From Duganella sp. 1411 (GTDB taxonomy: Bacteria > Pseudomonadota > Gammaproteobacteria > Burkholderiales > Burkholderiaceae_D), in contig NZ_JAFICD010000006.1 of assembly GCF_017833525.1 (NCBI RefSeq), positions 124,001 through 188,000 on the forward strand: a stretch of DNA of 64,000 bases. The letters run 5' to 3'. The translations under genes were made by a program, and so were the position numbers. The notes under the pieces are model-generated. The model saw only the letters and a list, made by a program, of their open reading frames with translations, made no database searches and had not been told where the DNA came from. Shown one piece after another: positions 35,582 to 44,042 of this stretch. Within the stretch, counting starts at the first letter, position 1, and the number at the start of each line of letters is the position of its first letter.

Positions 35582-36042
35582 GATTTGATTCCTTAAAAGA
35601 GGTCGTCCGGGGGCGGGTGTCGGCGCAGCGGCGACACGGCCCACCGGCATTAACAAGAAGCTAACTATGCTGTAATTTCCACAAGGCAATATCGTACTTC
35701 ATTGCAACATTTCCTGCTTGGAATGAAAGACCGGGCGGCCCGGCCAGGCCGCCGGTGCGGCCGAGGCCGCATGTTTCCTGGGAAAACCGCGCAAATGCCC
35801 GCCAAAACGGCCGCCAAACAATCCCTCAGGTATTGCCAAGACAACCAACATTCGCACGGCGAATACGTAGTTTCCACATGGACATATTTGTTATATCAAG
35901 GCACGGCTAAAGATTATTTAGTATGAACGATTGCTTAATATTTCATCAAAAACATCTTCTTTCATAGGAGAACTGGTCAGTGCTGTTATGAAAACTATCA
36001 TCTTGCAAGGAAACAATTCCAAAAGTTAAGATCCGGGCCCAT

Positions 36043-36058
36043 ATTTCCGATCGGAAAT
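36043..36058. promoter_or_regulatory. Perfect 16-bp palindrome upstream of the dioxygenase gene
   Basis: ATTTCCGATCGGAAAT is a perfect inverted repeat ending 19 bp before the dioxygenase start codon, directly before its ribosome site. Its position fits a repressor operator or an RNA hairpin in the leader. Confidence 0.45.
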
Positions 36059-36077
36059 TCATTCAAGGAGCCACCGG

Positions 36078-37073
36078 ATGCCCGCCATGCACGCACAACC
36101 CCGCAACATCATCGTCGTCCCGCGCGATTTCGCCTGGGCGCAGGACTTGACATCGATCGTCGACATCGTCGCGCGCCATTTCAGCGATTTCAACGGCAAC
36201 GGTTTTTATCCGCATCCGGACGAGGTGCGGCTGCAGCGCGAACTGCGCGCCGTGCCGGCGCTGGGCCGGCTCGGCGCCCTGCTCGGCCGCGTGAAGGCGC
36301 GCGGCGTGGCCATCTCCAACCTCGGCCTGGGCGCGCTCGGCGAAGCCCAACGCAACGCCGTGCTGTACGCGATCGCGCTATGCCGCGGCTTCCCGACGTC
36401 GACCGACCAGCGCACCCGGCGGGTGGCCTGGGACGTGCGCGCCCGCGCCGGCAGCGAGCGGCAGTCGCGCTTTGCGACCTTCTCCGAGCGCGTCGGCGGC
36501 GCCGACATGCATACCGACTCTTCGTTTTATCCGATGCCTGAGGAGCAGTTTCTTTTGTACGTGGTGGCGGCCGCCCGCTGCAACGGCGGCGAATCGCTGC
36601 TGATCGACGTCGAGGACGTCCACGCCGAATTGCTGCGCAGCCGCGAGGGCCGCGCCGCCTACGCGCTGCTGAGCAAGACGGCGCTGCCGTTCCGCGTGCC
36701 GTCGGTGTACGCGGCCAACGAGGAGCAGCTCGAATACCACATGGCGACGGTGTTCCACCGGCCGGCCGCGCTCGACGGCGCGCTGGCCATGCGCTGGCGC
36801 TACGACGCCATCGTCAAAGGCCTGGCCGCGCGGCCCGAGCTCGACAACGGCGCGCTGCGCGCCGCGGTCGAACTGGTCAACGACATCGTCGAGCGGCGCG
36901 CGCCGCGCTTCCATCGGCAGTTGCCGGACGATACACTGTTGTGGGCGGACAACCAGCGCACCCTGCACGGCCGCGCCCCGTACAGCGATCCGGAGCGTCA
37001 TTTGATCCGCATCCGCATTTCCAACACGCCCAACGCGGACCGTATCGGCCCGTCCGGCATTTCGGCAGATTAA
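36078..37073 (+). CDS. TauD/TfdA-like Fe(II)/2-oxoglutarate dioxygenase
   Basis: A 331-residue enzyme of the clavaminate-synthase/TauD superfamily. The metal-binding facial triad is visible: His and Asp in ADMHTDSSF (about residues 153-161) and the distal His in DNQRTLHGRAPYSD. The arginine expected to bind 2-oxoglutarate is in HLIRIRIS. Such enzymes hydroxylate or desaturate small acids, or release sulfite or amines; the substrate is unknown. AAGGAG precedes the ATG. The AEC transporter follows after 2 nt, so import or export of the substrate or product is probably coupled. Confidence 0.85.
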   Translation: MPAMHAQPRNIIVVPRDFAWAQDLTSIVDIVARHFSDFNGNGFYPHPDEVRLQRELRAVPALGRLGALLGRVKARGVAISNLGLGALGEAQRNAVLYAIALCRGFPTSTDQRTRRVAWDVRARAGSERQSRFATFSERVGGADMHTDSSFYPMPEEQFLLYVVAAARCNGGESLLIDVEDVHAELLRSREGRAAYALLSKTALPFRVPSVYAANEEQLEYHMATVFHRPAALDGALAMRWRYDAIVKGLAARPELDNGALRAAVELVNDIVERRAPRFHRQLPDDTLLWADNQRTLHGRAPYSDPERHLIRIRISNTPNADRIGPSGISAD

Positions 37074-37075
37074 GC

Positions 37076-37990
37076 ATGCTCGCAGCCATCCTTCCCGTCT
37101 TCCTGATCATTTTGCTGGGCGTGGCGATCCGCCGCTACGCCTGGCTGCCGGAGGCCTTCTTCCCGTCGATTGAAAAGTTCTCGTACAACATCTGCTTCCC
37201 GGCGCTGCTGTTCGCCGGCACCGCCCGCCTGAGCTTCCGCTCGGCCGAGGTCGGCGACCTGGCGCTGGCCACCCTGCTGCCGACGGCGCTGATCGTCGTC
37301 GCCGCGGTGCTGGCGCTGCTGGCGGCGCGCGCCCTGCCCGACGCGGCGCGCTCGTCGGTGGTGCAGGGCGCGATGCGGCCCAACACCTACTTCGGCATCG
37401 CCGTCTCGAGCTTGTTTTTCGCCCCGCCGACGGCCGCGCTGGTGATGCTGTCATTGGCGCTGTGCCTGCCGGTGGTGAACGTCATCGCGGTCGTCGCGCT
37501 GTCGTGGTGGAGCGGCGTGCCGACCGATTTCGCCAGGATCGCCAGGGCGCTGGCGGGCAACCCCATCATCCTGTCGACGCTGGCCGGCGTGGCGTTCAGC
37601 TTATCGGGCCTGCCGATGCCGGCGCCGTTGATGAACACGCTCGACATCCTCGGCCGCGCGGCCTTGTGCCTGGGGCTGGTCTGCGTCGGCAGCGGGCTGG
37701 TGTTTTCGTTGCGGGGGTTGCGTCCGCTGGCGCTCGGGTTCACGTCGCTGCTCAAGCTGATCGCCATGCCGCTGATCGCGGCCAAGGTGTGTTTGATGTT
37801 TGCCGTTTCGGCGCCGGTGGCGCTGGCGGCCTGCTTCTACTGCGCGCTGCCGACCGCGCCCAACGCCTACATCATGGCCAGGCAGATGGGCGGCGACACC
37901 CGGCTGATGGCGTCGCTGATCACGCTGCAAACGCTGCTGGCGGCGCTGACGGTGCCGCTGAGCCGCCATTTCCTGCAATGGCTGGCATAG
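37076..37990 (+). CDS. AEC-family (auxin efflux carrier-like) transporter
   Basis: A 304-residue inner-membrane protein with about ten helices in two inverted halves, as in bacterial AEC proteins (malonate and related acid carriers). Typical blocks are MLAAILPVFLIILLGVAIRR, EKFSYNICFPALLFAG, NTYFGIAVSSLFF and ALPTAPNAYIMARQMGGD. The ATG is 2 nt after the dioxygenase stop, so both genes form a two-gene operon. The substrate is likely an organic acid but cannot be named. Confidence 0.9.
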   Translation: MLAAILPVFLIILLGVAIRRYAWLPEAFFPSIEKFSYNICFPALLFAGTARLSFRSAEVGDLALATLLPTALIVVAAVLALLAARALPDAARSSVVQGAMRPNTYFGIAVSSLFFAPPTAALVMLSLALCLPVVNVIAVVALSWWSGVPTDFARIARALAGNPIILSTLAGVAFSLSGLPMPAPLMNTLDILGRAALCLGLVCVGSGLVFSLRGLRPLALGFTSLLKLIAMPLIAAKVCLMFAVSAPVALAACFYCALPTAPNAYIMARQMGGDTRLMASLITLQTLLAALTVPLSRHFLQWLA

Positions 37991-38570
37991 GACATTCCCG
38001 TCGCAAAACTGTGCGCTGCCGCCCTGCGCATCAAGGTATGATCCAACAGAAACTTGCGGCGTCGATCGGGAGCGCTGGCGCCTGGCGCCGTCGCGGCGGG
38101 CCCACACCGGCGCAGGTCACGCGGCGCGGGCCGGAAACCGGGCGGGTTTATGACCAAAAGTTACGTCCAAGGCAGGACCATGGCCTTCGGACGGCTTGCA
38201 CGGACGGCCCCGTCGGAACGTCCCGTGGCCACCCCGGACCAGGCGCACGACGTGGCACAGAGCAGAAATTCCGCTGCGCGCAACAGCCAGGGTCATTATT
38301 TTCCAAGGTTACAAAATATTTTGTCCCGGACAATTCAGGGGCAAAGGCGATAATCAGTTAATTAGTTCTCAATGTCAACTGCATGTCGTGGACAAGGTGT
38401 TTAGTACTGCTTGGCCGTACCGAAATCAACTTTGGACGTGGAAACTTTTGGGCCCAAAACGAAGGTAAAATGCAGGTCGCGCCGGATCAGAACCGCTTCC
38501 AGCGCAGCGCACCCCGACCCTGTGCCAACACTCGCGACTGTCAAAAACGGCAGCCGCTTAAGATTCTCTA
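37991..38570. other. Intergenic region upstream of the B12-binding MerR regulator
   Basis: About 580 bp without a credible gene. A perfect palindrome ACAAAATATTTTGT lies at 38311-38324. AT content rises from about 38280 onward, as expected for promoter DNA. No Shine-Dalgarno sequence is seen before the regulator start at 38571. Confidence 0.4.
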
Positions 38571-39518
38571 ATGACAACTACAGTTTCCTCTAAACCAGTT
38601 CCAAGCACGATCAGCGACGTCGAGCGAGACACCGGCGTTGCCAAGGAGACCCTGCGGGTATGGGAGCGTCGCTATGACTTCCCGCAGCCGCTGCGCGACC
38701 CCAACGGCGAGCGCGTCTACCCGATCGAACAGGTGCAAAAGCTGCGTCTGGTCAAGCGGCTGATCGACCTCGGCTTCCGCCCCGGCAAGGTGATCCAGTT
38801 CAGCGCGGAGGAATTGCAGACGCTGAGCGGCCAGGCCACCGGCGGCCTGGGCGGCCCGTCGCTGCCGCCGCCCGAGCTGCAACGCTATCTCGACTTGTGC
38901 AAAACCCATCAAATGGAAGCGCTGCGCCGCCAGTTGTCGCAGGCGCTGTTGATGATGGGGTTGAAGAGCTTCGTCATCGACCTGGTGGCGCCGCTGACCA
39001 CCCTGGTCGGCGACGCCTGGGCCAGCGGCCAGCTGGCCACGTTCGAAGAACACTTATATACGGAGTCGCTGACGGTGGTGATGCGCAGCGCCATCTTCGC
39101 CATGCCGCAGGCCGCCGCCAGCAACCTGGGCGCGCCGCGCATCATGCTGACCACCTTGCCGCAGGAGCGCCACGGCCTGGGCCTGCTGATGGCCGAGGCC
39201 ATGTGCGTGGCCGAAGGGGCGCATTGCATCTCGCTGGGCGTGCAAACGCCGCTGCTCGACATCGTCGAGGCGGCGCGCGTGCAGCGGGTCGACATCATCG
39301 CGCTGTCGTTCTCGGTGGCGATGAATCCGCGCCAGGCGCTCGACGGCCTGGCCGAGCTGCACACCCGCCTCAACGGCAGCGTCGAATTGTGGGCCGGCGG
39401 CGGCAACGCCGCGCTCAAACGGCGCCGTCCGCCCTATGTGCGGGTGTTCGCGCTGGCCGACATCAGCGCCGCCATCGCCGAATGGCGCCTGCGCAACGCC
39501 AACGTCGCCGCGGGCTGA
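38571..39518 (+). CDS. MerR-type regulator with B12-binding domain (CarH/LitR-like)
   Basis: A 315-residue protein. Residues about 13-82 are a MerR winged helix (ISDVERDTGVAKETLRVWERRYDFPQP). Residues about 105-180 form a helical cap and about 187-310 a cobalamin-binding Rossmann domain. Both diagnostic motifs of adenosylcobalamin photoreceptors are intact: W-x9-E-H (Trp150, Glu160, His161) in the cap, and E-x-H-x-x-G (Glu199, His201, Gly204) for the lower axial ligand. In CarH/LitR, B12-bound tetramers repress in the dark and dissociate in light. That function is inferred here; no carotenoid genes are nearby. The next gene, ftsY, is 120 bp downstream on the same strand. Confidence 0.85.
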   Translation: MTTTVSSKPVPSTISDVERDTGVAKETLRVWERRYDFPQPLRDPNGERVYPIEQVQKLRLVKRLIDLGFRPGKVIQFSAEELQTLSGQATGGLGGPSLPPPELQRYLDLCKTHQMEALRRQLSQALLMMGLKSFVIDLVAPLTTLVGDAWASGQLATFEEHLYTESLTVVMRSAIFAMPQAAASNLGAPRIMLTTLPQERHGLGLLMAEAMCVAEGAHCISLGVQTPLLDIVEAARVQRVDIIALSFSVAMNPRQALDGLAELHTRLNGSVELWAGGGNAALKRRRPPYVRVFALADISAAIAEWRLRNANVAAG

Positions 39519-39638
39519 AAAAGTTGTCATTCCGGTAGCAGCCCACGGCTGCCCGGCCGCGCTCTGGTAAAATAGCCGCATTTTCCCCGTGTCCGGCGCT
39601 GCCGGGCATCAGCTTGAAGCGCCCCCAACCACATATCC

Positions 39639-40682
39639 ATGTTTAGTTTCTTCAAGAAAAAACCTGTCGCCCCCGAGGCGCCAGAGGTCCAGATCCCCGC
39701 GCCGGCGCCCGCCGCCGCCGTCACCACTGCCACCGCCGACGCGCCCGTTCCCGCGCCGCTGATGCCGATCGAGGAGCCGGCGCAGAAGCAATCGTGGATG
39801 ACGCGCCTGAAGGCCGGCCTGTCCAAAACCTCGAACAACCTGTCGCTGCTGTTTGTCGGCGCCAAGATCGACGAGGACCTGTACGACGAGCTCGAGGCGG
39901 CGCTGCTGATGTCCGATGCCGGCGTCGACGCCACCGGATACCTGCTCGACGCGCTGCGGCAAAAGGTCAAGGACGAGAAGTTGCTCGACGCCGCCGCCGT
40001 CAAGGCCGCGCTCAAGCAGCTGATGATCGAACTGCTGACTCCGCTCCAGCGCCCGTTCGAGCTGGGCCGCCATCAACCGATGGTGATGATGATCGCCGGC
40101 GTCAACGGCGCCGGCAAGACCACCACCATCGGCAAGCTCGCCAAGCACATGCAGTCGAACGGCCAGTCGGTGCTGCTGGCCGCCGGCGACACCTTCCGCG
40201 CCGCCGCCCGCGAGCAATTGATGGTCTGGGGCCAGCGCAACAACATCACCGTCATCTCGCAGGCCTCCGGCGACCCGGCGGCCGTGTCGTTTGACGCCGT
40301 GCAGTCCGGCAAGGCGCGCGGGCTGGACGTGGTGATGATCGACACGGCCGGCCGCCTGCCGACCCAGCTGCACCTGATGGAGGAGTTGAAGAAGGTCCAG
40401 CGCGTCATCGGCAAGGGCATGGAGGGCGCACCGCACGAAACGCTGCTGGTTATCGACGGCAATACCGGGCAAAATGCGCTGGCGCAGGTCAAAGCCTTCG
40501 ACGACGCCCTCAAGCTGACCGGCCTGGTGATCACCAAACTGGACGGCACCGCCAAGGGCGGCGTGCTGGCGGCGATCGCCCGCGTGCGTCCGGTGCCCGT
40601 GTATTTCATCGGCATCGGCGAAAAAATTGAAGACCTGCAGCCCTTCGTGGCTGCCGAATTTGTCGACGCTTTGCTCCCATAA
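39639..40682 (+). CDS. ftsY: Signal recognition particle receptor FtsY
   Basis: SRP-type GTPase that docks ribosome-nascent chains at the membrane; 347 residues. A short Pro/Ala-rich acidic N-terminal region (residues 9-45) replaces the long A domain of E. coli. The N domain follows, then the G domain with GVNGAGKTTTIGKLA, AAGDTFRAAAREQL, DTAGRLPTQ, TKLDGTAKGG and the C-terminal GIGEKIEDLQPF. A TAAAAT -10 box at about 39567-39572 probably starts the ftsYEX transcript. Confidence 0.97.
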   Translation: MFSFFKKKPVAPEAPEVQIPAPAPAAAVTTATADAPVPAPLMPIEEPAQKQSWMTRLKAGLSKTSNNLSLLFVGAKIDEDLYDELEAALLMSDAGVDATGYLLDALRQKVKDEKLLDAAAVKAALKQLMIELLTPLQRPFELGRHQPMVMMIAGVNGAGKTTTIGKLAKHMQSNGQSVLLAAGDTFRAAAREQLMVWGQRNNITVISQASGDPAAVSFDAVQSGKARGLDVVMIDTAGRLPTQLHLMEELKKVQRVIGKGMEGAPHETLLVIDGNTGQNALAQVKAFDDALKLTGLVITKLDGTAKGGVLAAIARVRPVPVYFIGIGEKIEDLQPFVAAEFVDALLP

Positions 40683-40704
40683 TTGCTCGGATAACACTAC
40701 CTAC

Positions 40705-41361
40705 ATGATCGAATTCCGGAACGTCTCGAAACAATACTCCCCCGACGCGATGGCGCTGCGCGACATCTCGCTGACGGTGGAAAAAGGCGAACTGGTGTTC
40801 CTGGCCGGCCCCTCGGGCGCCGGCAAATCCACGCTGTTGAAGATGATCGCCGCCATCGAACGCCCCAGCGCCGGCCACGTCATCGTCAACGGCCAGGACA
40901 TCGCCCGCATCAAGCCGGCCGCCGTGCCATTTCTGCGCCGCAACCTCGGCCTGATCTTCCAGCAACAACGCCTGCTCAACGACCGCACCATCCTCGCCAA
41001 CGTCATGTTGCCGCTGCTGGTGACGGGCGCCTCGCACCACCATGCCGAGCAGCGCGCCCGCGCCGCGCTCGACAAGGTTGGCCTGGCCGACCGCGCCAGC
41101 GCGCATCCGCTGGCCCTGTCCGGCGGCGAGCAGCAGCGCGTGTCGATCGCGCGCGCCATCGTCAACCGGCCGCAGGTGATCCTGGCCGACGAGCCGACCG
41201 CCAACCTCGACCGCGCCAGCGCCAACAAGGTGCTCGACGCGCTCAAGGCCTTCCACTCGGTCGGCGTGACCTGCGTCATCTCCAGCCACGACGAGCAAAT
41301 GCTCGACGCGGCCGCGCGCGTCATCCACCTCAACCAGGGTCGGCTGGAGGTGGCGGCATGA
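40705..41361 (+). CDS. ftsE: Cell division ATP-binding protein FtsE
   Basis: ABC-type ATPase that, with FtsX, controls periplasmic amidase activation at the septum. The 218-residue product has Walker A GPSGAGKST, Q-loop IFQQQRLL, signature LSGGEQQRVSIARA and Walker B VILADEPTANLD. The start is the ATG at 40705 (MIEFRNVSKQYSPDA), giving the usual N-terminus; in-frame codons upstream lie within ftsY. It overlaps ftsX by 4 nt. Confidence 0.97.
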   Translation: MIEFRNVSKQYSPDAMALRDISLTVEKGELVFLAGPSGAGKSTLLKMIAAIERPSAGHVIVNGQDIARIKPAAVPFLRRNLGLIFQQQRLLNDRTILANVMLPLLVTGASHHHAEQRARAALDKVGLADRASAHPLALSGGEQQRVSIARAIVNRPQVILADEPTANLDRASANKVLDALKAFHSVGVTCVISSHDEQMLDAAARVIHLNQGRLEVAA

Positions 41362-42278
41362 CGCACTGGTTCCGCCAACACCGCTACGCGCTGGCCGCCG
41401 CGCTGGGCCATCTGCGCCGCGCGCCCGGCAGTTTCCTGTTCAACATCATCGTCGTGGCGATCGCGCTGGCGCTGCCGTTCACCGGCGTCACCCTGCTCGA
41501 CAACGTGCGGCCCATGTCCGAGCAGCTGTCGGTCGATCCGGAAATCAGCGTGTTCCTCAAGCAGGACACGCCGCGCGAGCAGGCCGAGGGGCTGGCCGTG
41601 CAACTGCGCCAGACCTTGCCGGACAAACAGGCCAAGATCATTTTCACGTCGCGCGAAAAAGCGCTCGACAGCATGAAGGAAAAAAGCGGCCTGGCCGACG
41701 TGCTGACCACCCTGGGCGAAAATCCCCTGCCCGACAGCTATGTGCTCAAGCTCGACGCCTTCCGCCTGGCCCAGTCCGGTGGCGACGTCGACCAATTGGC
41801 CGAACAGATCCGCGCCCTGCCCGGCGTCGACACGGTGCAGGTCGATTCGGCCTGGGTCAAGCGGCTGGCCGCGCTGCTCAACATCCTGCACCTGGGGCTG
41901 CTGTTGCTGGCGGTCACCCTCGGCACCGTGGTGGTGGCCGTCATCTTCAACACCATCCGCCTGCAGGTCATGACGCAGCGCGAGGAAATCCTCGTGTCCA
42001 AGCTGATCGGCGCGACCGACAGCTTCATCCACCGCCCCTTCTATTACACGGGCGCCCTGCTGGGCCTGTGCGCCGGCGGACTGGCGCTGGGCGTGGTATC
42101 GCTGGCGCTGCGCCCGCTGAACACCGCGATCGCCGAATTCGCCCGCCTGTACGCGTCCGAATTCCAGCTGACGCCGCTGCAGCCGCTGGCGATGGCCGGC
42201 CTGCTGGCGCTGTCGGCCGGCTTAGGGCTGATCGCCGCCGTGCTGTCGGTGCAGCGCCACCTGTCCCGCCTGAATTAA
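41358..42278 (+). CDS. ftsX: Cell division protein FtsX
   Basis: Membrane partner of FtsE; 306 residues with four helices. A first helix (about residues 25-45) is followed by a large periplasmic loop (about 50-170, with SVDPEISVFLKQDTPREQAEG), then three helices in an FtsX/MacB-type core (LLLLAVTLGTVVVAVIFNTI, then two more). Its ATG overlaps the ftsE stop in ATGA. A hairpin at 42290-42313 follows. Confidence 0.96.
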   Translation: MTHWFRQHRYALAAALGHLRRAPGSFLFNIIVVAIALALPFTGVTLLDNVRPMSEQLSVDPEISVFLKQDTPREQAEGLAVQLRQTLPDKQAKIIFTSREKALDSMKEKSGLADVLTTLGENPLPDSYVLKLDAFRLAQSGGDVDQLAEQIRALPGVDTVQVDSAWVKRLAALLNILHLGLLLLAVTLGTVVVAVIFNTIRLQVMTQREEILVSKLIGATDSFIHRPFYYTGALLGLCAGGLALGVVSLALRPLNTAIAEFARLYASEFQLTPLQPLAMAGLLALSAGLGLIAAVLSVQRHLSRLN

Positions 42279-42289
42279 TTCCCTCCGCC

Positions 42290-42313
42290 TTTCCGTGCGC
42301 TCCCGCACGGAAA
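42290..42313. terminator. Hairpin after ftsX
   Basis: TTTCCGTGCG and CGCACGGAAA form a perfect 10-bp stem with a 4-nt loop, 11 nt after the ftsX stop codon. No T tract follows on the + strand, so termination would be weak or factor-dependent. Confidence 0.4.
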
Positions 42314-42463
42314 CGGCCGCCGCACCGGCCTACGATCACACCATCCCACGTTTTCCTTATTAAGTCAGGCCTAAGCTCCATCGTGCATGCTTGATTTATC
42401 AAAAGCCATTATTCGTACAAAGCCGATAGTGTTTTTACTATGAGGCCCATAAAAATAAGGTGA

Positions 42464-42493
42464 TTGGCACTCAACCCAGGAGAGTGCTAATAT
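42464..42493 (+). promoter_or_regulatory. CIRCE element (HrcA operator) overlapping an rpoH promoter
   Basis: TTGGCACTC, 9 bases, GAGTGCTAA (42464-42490) matches the CIRCE consensus TTAGCACTC-N9-GAGTGCTAA with one change. The same DNA reads as a promoter, TTGGCA (42464-42469), 18-bp spacer, TAATAT (42488-42493). HrcA bound here would block it. The leader to rpoH is about 110 nt. Confidence 0.9.
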
Positions 42494-42608
42494 ATGAAAA
42501 CTGCAGAGTTAACAACACTCTGAAGAATTGGCAATAAGGCAATATTTTCCGTCCTGTGGCCCTTCAAGGCACATTGAGACTTAGCAATCTTCGAGCGAAG
42601 GAATGAAA

Positions 42609-43508
<900 letters not shown>

Positions 43509-43532
43509 AACCACGTGGCAGTCTGAGCAAAA

Positions 43533-43569
43533 AAATGCCGCCCGGTGTGCAAGCCGCGCGGCATTTTTA
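43533..43569 (+). terminator. Rho-independent terminator of rpoH
   Basis: AAATGCCGC and GCGGCATTT arms with a GC-rich loop, then TTTT on the + strand; starts about 25 nt after the rpoH stop codon. Confidence 0.8.
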
Positions 43570-43611
43570 CTTGGAACGACCATCCACCACGGACCGACCG
43601 AGCCAGGGAAC

Positions 43612-43649
43612 CACGTAGGGCGGATTAGGCGGCACGCCGTAATCCGCCA
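43612..43649 (-). repeat. REP-like palindrome, copy 2
   Basis: CACGTAGGGCGGATTAGG, GCACGCCGTAATCCGCCA: an imperfect palindrome with GGCGGATTA arms, matching the copies at 7078, 50349, 62521 and 62610. Confidence 0.75.
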
Positions 43650-43664
43650 AGCGCCGCCATCGGC

Positions 43665-43928
43665 CTACGCCGCCAGCCCCTTGACGAGCAACTCCGCCAC
43701 CAACTGATTCATCTCAACGCCGCGCTCCGTGGCCTGCGCGTTCAAGCGCGCCACCAGCTCGCCATTCAACTTCACCGCGAACGGCACCAACCCGGCCGCC
43801 TGGTCGCGCCGGCGCTGCTCGCGCTTGTCGACCACCTCGGCCACTTTGCCGAAGGTCGCCGCCCCCGGCCCGGCCATTTTTCCCATCAGTTTTTTGGCAT
43901 CGCTCTTCGCCAGGTCGGTCTTTTTCAT
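43665..43928 (-). CDS. Small protein with RHH-like C-terminal half
   Basis: An 87-residue basic protein. The C-terminal part (about residues 50-87) has a short strand, PFAVKLNGELVARLNAQA, followed by two helices, GVEMNQLVAELLVKGL. This is reminiscent of ribbon-helix-helix proteins that bind DNA as dimers. The N-terminal half (KKTDLAKSDAKKLMGKM) is lysine-rich. AGGA lies 8 nt before the ATG at 43928. No toxin gene accompanies it. Function is unknown; the RHH reading is pattern-based and uncertain. Confidence 0.6.
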   Translation of the reverse strand: MKKTDLAKSDAKKLMGKMAGPGAATFGKVAEVVDKREQRRRDQAAGLVPFAVKLNGELVARLNAQATERGVEMNQLVAELLVKGLAA

Positions 43929-44042
43929 GTCTTTAATCCTAAAATAATTCAGAGCAGGCATTCTACGCCGCTAGCGGTTCGTGCGCCGCCAAAATGATAC
44001 TTTTGCTAAGCTAACCGCCACTTTGCAATCAAGAGGTCGCAC

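Follow-up and report, generated by a model that had tools for sequence, protein, structure and literature searches.

The regulator described here most resembles CarH/LitR of Thermus thermophilus (TtCarH; PDB 5c8d, 3whp), in which a MerR helix-turn-helix (HTH) head is combined with a four-helix and a Rossmann B12-binding domain. TtCarH carries the motif W-x9-EH and a lower-ligand His, and a further residue, His132, is the upper ligand of its light state and drives its disassembly. Reports on the weight of this residue point in opposite directions. The H132A mutant of TtCarH is described as mostly tetrameric in the light in a paper that also quotes an earlier report of disassembly (PMC10442372), whereas Chloracidobacterium CtMerR (PDB 8jbs), a MerR photosensor that naturally has Arg at the upper-His position, is described as monomerising in the light (PMC11796333). 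GxxH is part of the published light signature (PMC11796333), and known CarH operators are given as tandem 11-bp direct repeats (PMC9304148).

Other described systems resemble the locus in part. In Pseudomonas, the class II LitR proteins PplR1 and PmlR2, a class defined by the absence of the Rossmann half, are reported to control light-inducible genes for a photolyase, an SDR, an FAD oxidoreductase and UfaM, and in Pseudomonas mendocina phrB and ufaM are induced 25-33-fold by light (PMC9758184). According to the same source, PplR1 binds T(G/A)TACA-N12-TGTA(C/T)A, PmlR2 recognises TGTACA-N12-TGTACA and has a LOV protein as its inhibitor, and the C-terminus of class III LitR has no likeness to known functional domains (PMC9758184). 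In Rhodobacter sphaeroides, the operon RSP1087-1091 contains UfaD and UfaO, the enzymes that form furan fatty acids, and these fatty acids are described as accumulating more on loss of chrR (PMC7380195).

The present locus lies in a stretch of 64,000 bp from Duganella sp. 1411 (the window), for which a sequence-only reading had proposed a B12-dependent light sensor upstream of ftsY. The open reading frame is real, and homology and conservation support a regulator of the B12-dependent light-sensor type. We think it probable that the gene (carH; Table 1) encodes an adenosylcobalamin (AdoCbl)-dependent, light-responsive repressor of CarH/LitR type, orphaned from its operon, which acts on itself and perhaps on a photolyase gene, and not on ftsY. 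Its novelty would lie in being an orphaned AdoCbl repressor of this type, presumably sensing light, with Ala as the residue at the upper-ligand position and a predicted operator of unusual form. Our searches of the open-licence literature found no work joining CarH with Massilia, or light, Janthinobacterium, B12-binding and MerR; the only match for LitR and Janthinobacterium was, by its listing, a Listeria review, and nothing relevant to this system was found among the leading matches.

The mechanism that we propose is as follows. In the dark, an AdoCbl-bound oligomer would occupy two inverted-repeat operators with a spacing of 62 bp; green or blue light would break the Co-C bond and weaken binding, and promoters between or near the operators would fire. 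The ancestral main output would have been a divergent operon for an FAD oxidase, a DUF1365 protein and a CMAS methyltransferase (in Janthinobacterium also MFS_2, DUF3833 and SDR), the kind of operon that is light-induced in Pseudomonas. Its deletion in this genome would have left a scar, in the form of a pseudogene, that separates the upstream transporter gene from the first operator, O1. Because the sensor and O1 have been kept, the sensor probably continues to control its own expression and, by way of a promoter site, perhaps that of the photolyase gene phr.

Table 1. Features of the carH locus, in window coordinates (strand given where assigned)
Feature	Position	Strand	Basis
Decayed FAD/NAD oxidase gene remnant, possible start 38296, in-frame stop; best piece 38003-38097	38003..38296	-	Alignment with CF517 gene
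14-bp palindrome ACAAAATATTTTGT, overlaps O1, not conserved	38311..38324		Sequence
Predicted operator O1 TTTTGTCCCGGACAATT, 17-bp inverted repeat, 2 mismatches to TTTTGTCCNGGACAAAA	38319..38335		Genome scan, shuffles, recurrence
Promoter-like CGGACA-16-GATAAT overlapping O1	38327..38354	+	Sequence
Promoter-like TTGACA-17-GATTAT, leftward, flanked by O1 and O2 and directed at the lost operon	38350..38378	-	Sequence
Degenerate second site O2 GCATGTCGTGGACAAGG, 62 bp from O1	38381..38397		2.8 bits only; within conserved block
-10-like block GTAAAATG, candidate carH promoter	38465..38472	+	Recurs in relatives
CarH/LitR-type MerR regulator (carH), 315 aa, ATG start	38571..39518	+	ORF, domain, alignment and structure-model evidence
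MerR-type DNA-binding domain, residues 13-74	38607..38792	+	Pfam MerR_1, E 1e-12, 48.4 bits
B12-binding_2 four-helix domain, residues 104-171, with W150, A151, E160, H161	38880..39083	+	Pfam 25.4 bits, cut-off 23
Ala151, place of TtCarH His132 (light-state upper ligand)	39021..39023	+	TtCarH alignments
Rossmann B12-binding domain, residues 190-282, with lower-ligand H201	39138..39416	+	Pfam 32.5 bits, cut-off 32.1
ftsY promoter -10-like region CTCTGGTAAAAT	39562..39573	+	67/68 relatives, one by looser pattern
ftsY, conserved neighbour, not supported as target	39639..40682	+	Pfam SRP54

Family and cofactor residues of the sensor

All three domains (MerR_1, B12-binding_2 and B12-binding) exceed their Pfam cut-offs, and TtCarH aligns with the protein at an E-value of about 1e-25. 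When an AF2 model (pLDDT 89, from a 40-row alignment) was submitted to Foldseek, the top matches were full-length TtCarH structures, at 24-27% identity, and the B12 domain of TtCarH gave a TMt of about 0.8; CtMerR was matched structurally at 15-18% identity. Against the NCBIfam CarH equivalog NF052513 the protein scores 120.1 bits, which counts against our reading; as this is far under the curated cut-off of 400, we file the sensor as CarH/LitR-type and not as a CarH equivalog. In domain content only, it may be called class I-like LitR: the N-terminus is a MerR HTH (Pfam MerR_1), both the four-helix and the Rossmann B12 domain are present (Pfam; AF2 and Foldseek), and W-x9-E-H and the lower-ligand E-x-H are found as in TtCarH. 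The Rossmann half rules out class II (PplR), and the B12 domains at the C-terminus rule out class III (Burkholderia), as these classes are defined in PMC9758184.

The genome holds a gene of the CobA/BtuR family, the family of AdoCbl-forming enzymes, which makes a supply of AdoCbl plausible. A second carH copy was ruled out, since elsewhere in the genome there is only a CarH-like fragment (G000:C1:847738-848073; L006, L089). This fragment matches query residues 195-305, i.e. the Rossmann half, and has no MerR head and no four-helix match beside it.

For comparison we used a family-wide draw of 195 genomes, 68 of which match carH at E 1e-20 or better. The orthologue set comprised 132 loci, namely 52 stretches round the family-draw matches and the best 80 of 343 matches; these loci are interrelated, some being one record twice, and correspond to 120 distinct proteins, of which 68 are linked to ftsY. 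The nearest relative is Duganella sp. CF517 (locus L037), whose protein is 97% identical to the sensor.

The sequence-only reading had stated that both motifs needed for AdoCbl photoreception are present. W150-x9-E160-H161 and E199-R-H201-G-L-G204 are indeed there, W, E and H being kept in 68/68 and H201 in 64/68 distinct ftsY-linked orthologues, but that statement left out the upper His and the Gly of GxxH. TtCarH has His132 where the sensor and 66/68 ftsY-linked orthologues have Ala (Arg in CtMerR, so that an upper His is not universal), and none of the 120 distinct orthologues has His there. The sensor contains three of the four elements of the published light signature (GxxW, EH, GxxH, GxxxP); its GxxH is QERH. 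Gln replaces this Gly in 93 of the 120 proteins, and a search by the published GxxH motif would miss most of the group.

In two lineages (four orthologues, L096/L099 and L129/L133) the lower-ligand His201 is itself replaced by Asp or Gln while W, E and H are kept, with dN/dS values of 0.138 and 0.059, respectively. These four genes are naturally occurring variants suited to the study of function with a non-His ligand or with no cobalamin.

The missing upper His counts against our reading and is a real caution as to the light response, which is plausible but not given, because the H132A and CtMerR reports disagree. We considered the possibility that the protein senses AdoCbl, as a measure of vitamin B12 status, or redox state, and no longer has a useful light response: its domain would bind AdoCbl and form oligomers, but the light state would stay assembled for want of the upper His. 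The Ala at residue 151, the family-wide lack of His, the mostly tetrameric H132A mutant (PMC10442372) and the intact genes that have lost His201 would all fit this explanation, whereas the light-induced monomerisation described for CtMerR (PMC11796333) and the nature of the linked operon and the photolyase, which are by type light or photo-oxidative genes, speak against it. We regard it as unlikely, although it is the most serious of the competing explanations. With so many CarH-type sensors in this group carrying Ala for the key His, nature offers a test of the importance of the bis-His light state.

Predicted operators upstream of carH

The gap upstream of carH measures 580 bp (37991-38570), and its length and the 14-bp palindrome within it had been pointed out from the sequence. 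Both are real, and none of 100 shuffled versions of the window contained the palindrome, but it recurs exactly in just 2 of the 132 orthologue upstream regions, both belonging to the nearest relative, and we rejected it as the operator. The element that recurs is the overlapping inverted repeat O1. It is the only match to TTTTGTCCNGGACAAAA within 2 mismatches in the window, and was absent from 100 dinucleotide shuffles. No other place in the genome (7.6 Mb) matches as well; 15 places lie within 3 mismatches, versus 7 for a reversed control. The best 17-mer upstream of carH was at most 3 mismatches from TTTTGTCCNGGACAAAA in 100/132 loci versus 2/660 mononucleotide-shuffled sequences, a figure inflated by the fact that the consensus was derived from, and counted in, the same regions.

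The low score of O2 (2.8 bits) counts against our reading. In 47 of the 68 ftsY-linked orthologues, the two best sites upstream of carH are separated by 62 bp; among the 52 orthologues that are not ftsY-linked, 14 have them at a spacing of 62-64 bp. This predicted layout differs from the known ones, since CarH operators are direct repeats (PMC9304148) and PplR1 binds half-sites with an N12 spacer; the PmlR2 sites are likewise different. If correct, an operator made of 17-bp inverted repeats, in many cases as a pair with 62-bp spacing, would make the regulon of Duganella- and Janthinobacterium-type bacteria directly testable.

The motif GTA[AG]AAT[GA] occurs at most 200 bp from the carH start in 50/69 loci, mostly about 146 bp past O1, and at this distance a simple blockage of the carH promoter by O1 is uncertain. 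Self-regulation, which the earlier reading had allowed for, has support from homology and conservation as a possible output. No Rfam element reached its gathering score in positions 36000-44000.

The divergent oxidase operon and its loss

Genes for an FAD oxidase, a DUF1365 protein and a CMAS methyltransferase lie divergently, directly left of carH, in 23 of the 68 distinct ftsY-linked loci, including CF517 (L037); in the Janthinobacterium locus L046 they are followed by MFS_2, DUF3833 and SDR genes. Similar genes neighbour carH in the 54 non-ftsY loci: FAD amine oxidase in 29, CMAS in 21, DUF1365 in 17, glutathione peroxidase in 16, FolE2 in 9 and photolyase-related DPRP in 7, as named from one representative per cluster, eight of which were domain-searched. 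The gene set near the orthologues of the sensor resembles that of PplR1/PmlR2, although class II LitR keeps only the four-helix part and the sensor has the Rossmann half too. Judged from domain types and by analogy with R. sphaeroides (PMC7380195), the operon beside carH may make furan fatty acids; RSP1087-1091, unlike the carH-side operon, is ChrR-linked.

In the window, the operon has been reduced to a remnant between O1 and the transporter gene that ends at 37990. Its best piece aligns locally with the CF517 oxidase gene over 95 bp with a score of 89, versus at most 30 in 200 shuffles and at most 29 in 500. The 5' piece is weak by itself (24 residues, E 1.3), and its assignment relies on position and reading frame. 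Locus L040 has TauD and transporter genes to the left of an intact operon, so that the window looks like an operon deletion. DUF1365 was absent from the whole genome; among the 195 genomes, it was found in 52/68 with and 61/127 without carH. It had been noted that no light-response gene is adjacent to the sensor; this is correct for intact genes, but one has decayed there.

On a quick protein tree, in which 30/71 inner branches are poorly supported, the operon label requires at least 8 changes, at least 5 of them by well-supported branches. The window pairs with CF517, and the deletion probably dates after the split from this relative.

In L039 (G166), a transporter gene like that of L046, judged by eye, lies about 790-2020 bp left of carH. 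As oxidase, DUF1365 and CMAS are all missing there, operon losses may be piecemeal.

The regulator has repeatedly outlasted its neighbouring operon. The dN/dS of carH is 0.076 between the window and CF517 and 0.041-0.143 in 14 operon-less pairs; in three operon-bearing pairs it is 0.058-0.19. The sensor is, on these substitution ratios, under purifying selection despite operon loss. O1 scores at least 15 bits in 43/46 operon-less and 23/23 operon-bearing loci, whereas the leftward promoter keeps at least 9 of 12 positions in 21/23 operon-bearing versus 9/46 operon-less loci by hand count (Fisher 9e-9, kinship ignored), or 13/15 versus 8/41 among loci with a second site. This persistence of O1 while the operon promoter decays suggests that O1 is kept for a role other than the operon. 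In the window, the leftward promoter matches 10 of 12, as a recent loss would predict.

This orphan promoter (38350-38378, minus strand) is now aimed at the remnant of the pseudogene and, beyond it, the transporter gene's 3' end.

The at least eight changes of operon label, and the lack of a carH match at E 1e-20 in 2 of 12 genomes of the genus, could also mean that the sensor, having lost its operon, is a relic with no function that is itself being lost. Yet the low dN/dS, together with the retention of both the cofactor residues and O1 across operon-less loci, makes this very improbable. A wider reading is that an upper-His-less clade of B12 light-sensor-type repressors has repeatedly been cut from a photo-oxidative operon and kept as a stand-alone AdoCbl switch, for light, B12 status or both, with paired inverted-repeat operators and a rewired output, in this genome to the photolyase and its own promoter. 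We put this forward tentatively, as distinctly less assured than the orphaned light-responsive repressor that we favour for this locus.

ftsY, photolyase and other candidate targets

As had been described, ftsY, ftsE, ftsX and rpoH follow the sensor. The order carH-ftsY-ftsE-ftsX-rpoH is common to Duganella, Rugamonas, Pseudoduganella, Massilia and Janthinobacterium loci, and a check of this neighbourhood in relatives bore out carH-ftsY in 68 distinct loci but not outside the clade, the fetched flanks of carH from Noviherbaspirillum, Glaciimonas, Polynucleobacter and Limnohabitans containing no ftsY. The same strand, the conserved order, the gap of 120 bp and the lack of a plus-strand terminator match in it could indicate that the sensor regulates ftsY-ftsE-ftsX-rpoH directly or by read-through, as the sequence-only reading had suggested. 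This idea did not hold up. In 67/68 distinct ftsY-linked relatives, the carH-ftsY gap contains the promoter-like motif CTCTGGTA[AG]AAT or a near variant of it; the motif also precedes ftsY in genomes without a carH match (e.g. G040, G120), and an operator-like site of at least 12 bits was found in the gap in 0/68 loci. Since ftsY thus appears to have a promoter of its own, shared with carH-less genomes, and no site lies in the gap, we reject it as a likely target and regard such control as highly unlikely. For the targets, which the earlier reading had left open, the candidates come down to the ancestral divergent operon, which this genome has lost, and perhaps, in this genome, the photolyase.

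With regard to the latter, phr, the only PF03441 photolyase gene of the genome, has a site with 3 mismatches whose end lies 70 bp ahead of its first ATG. In the 90 of 162 genomes with a photolyase match, a site of at least 12 bits was present in 3/63 with carH (this genome, CF517, and G113 of another genus) and in 0/27 without it. The difference (Fisher p 0.55, Mann-Whitney p 0.25) counts against our reading and gives no support to the photolyase being a target in general. When 40 genomes of the genus were scanned at up to 2 mismatches, there were 95 sites versus 57 for the reversed control; this shows no larger regulon at that threshold and, amounting to about one extra site per genome, suggests that the present regulon may be carH alone. 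A carotenoid link, as in TtCarH, was not seen: the genome has three SQS_PSY matches, and none lies, by eye, less than 50 kb from any of the 15 operator-like places.

The operon itself was also looked at where it is distant from carH. Among 10 carH-bearing genomes in which carH and the DUF1365 operon are not neighbours, three had a strong site pair 63-64 bp apart just before the distant oxidase operon (G023, 380 kb from carH; G039, 14 kb; G088, on another contig), versus 0/10 genomes without carH. The other seven had no strong site there, which counts against our reading; five of them have a more diverged oxidase (49-53%, versus 55-70% in the positives), and the remaining two, G046 and G047, have only a distant carH (33-37%).

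A more diverged FAD oxidase-DUF1365 copy without a strong operator was found in six loci (L338-L342 and L348, in G166, G067, G155, G072, G113 and G120), with CMAS in five of them; L342 ends at a contig edge. These genomes have lost or lack the carH-linked operon, and the copy is perhaps a second, differently regulated version. Finally, a 3-mismatch operator-like site lies between what seem, by eye, to be a sensor-kinase gene and a Fur gene of the genome studied here (G000:C2:499741; L176).
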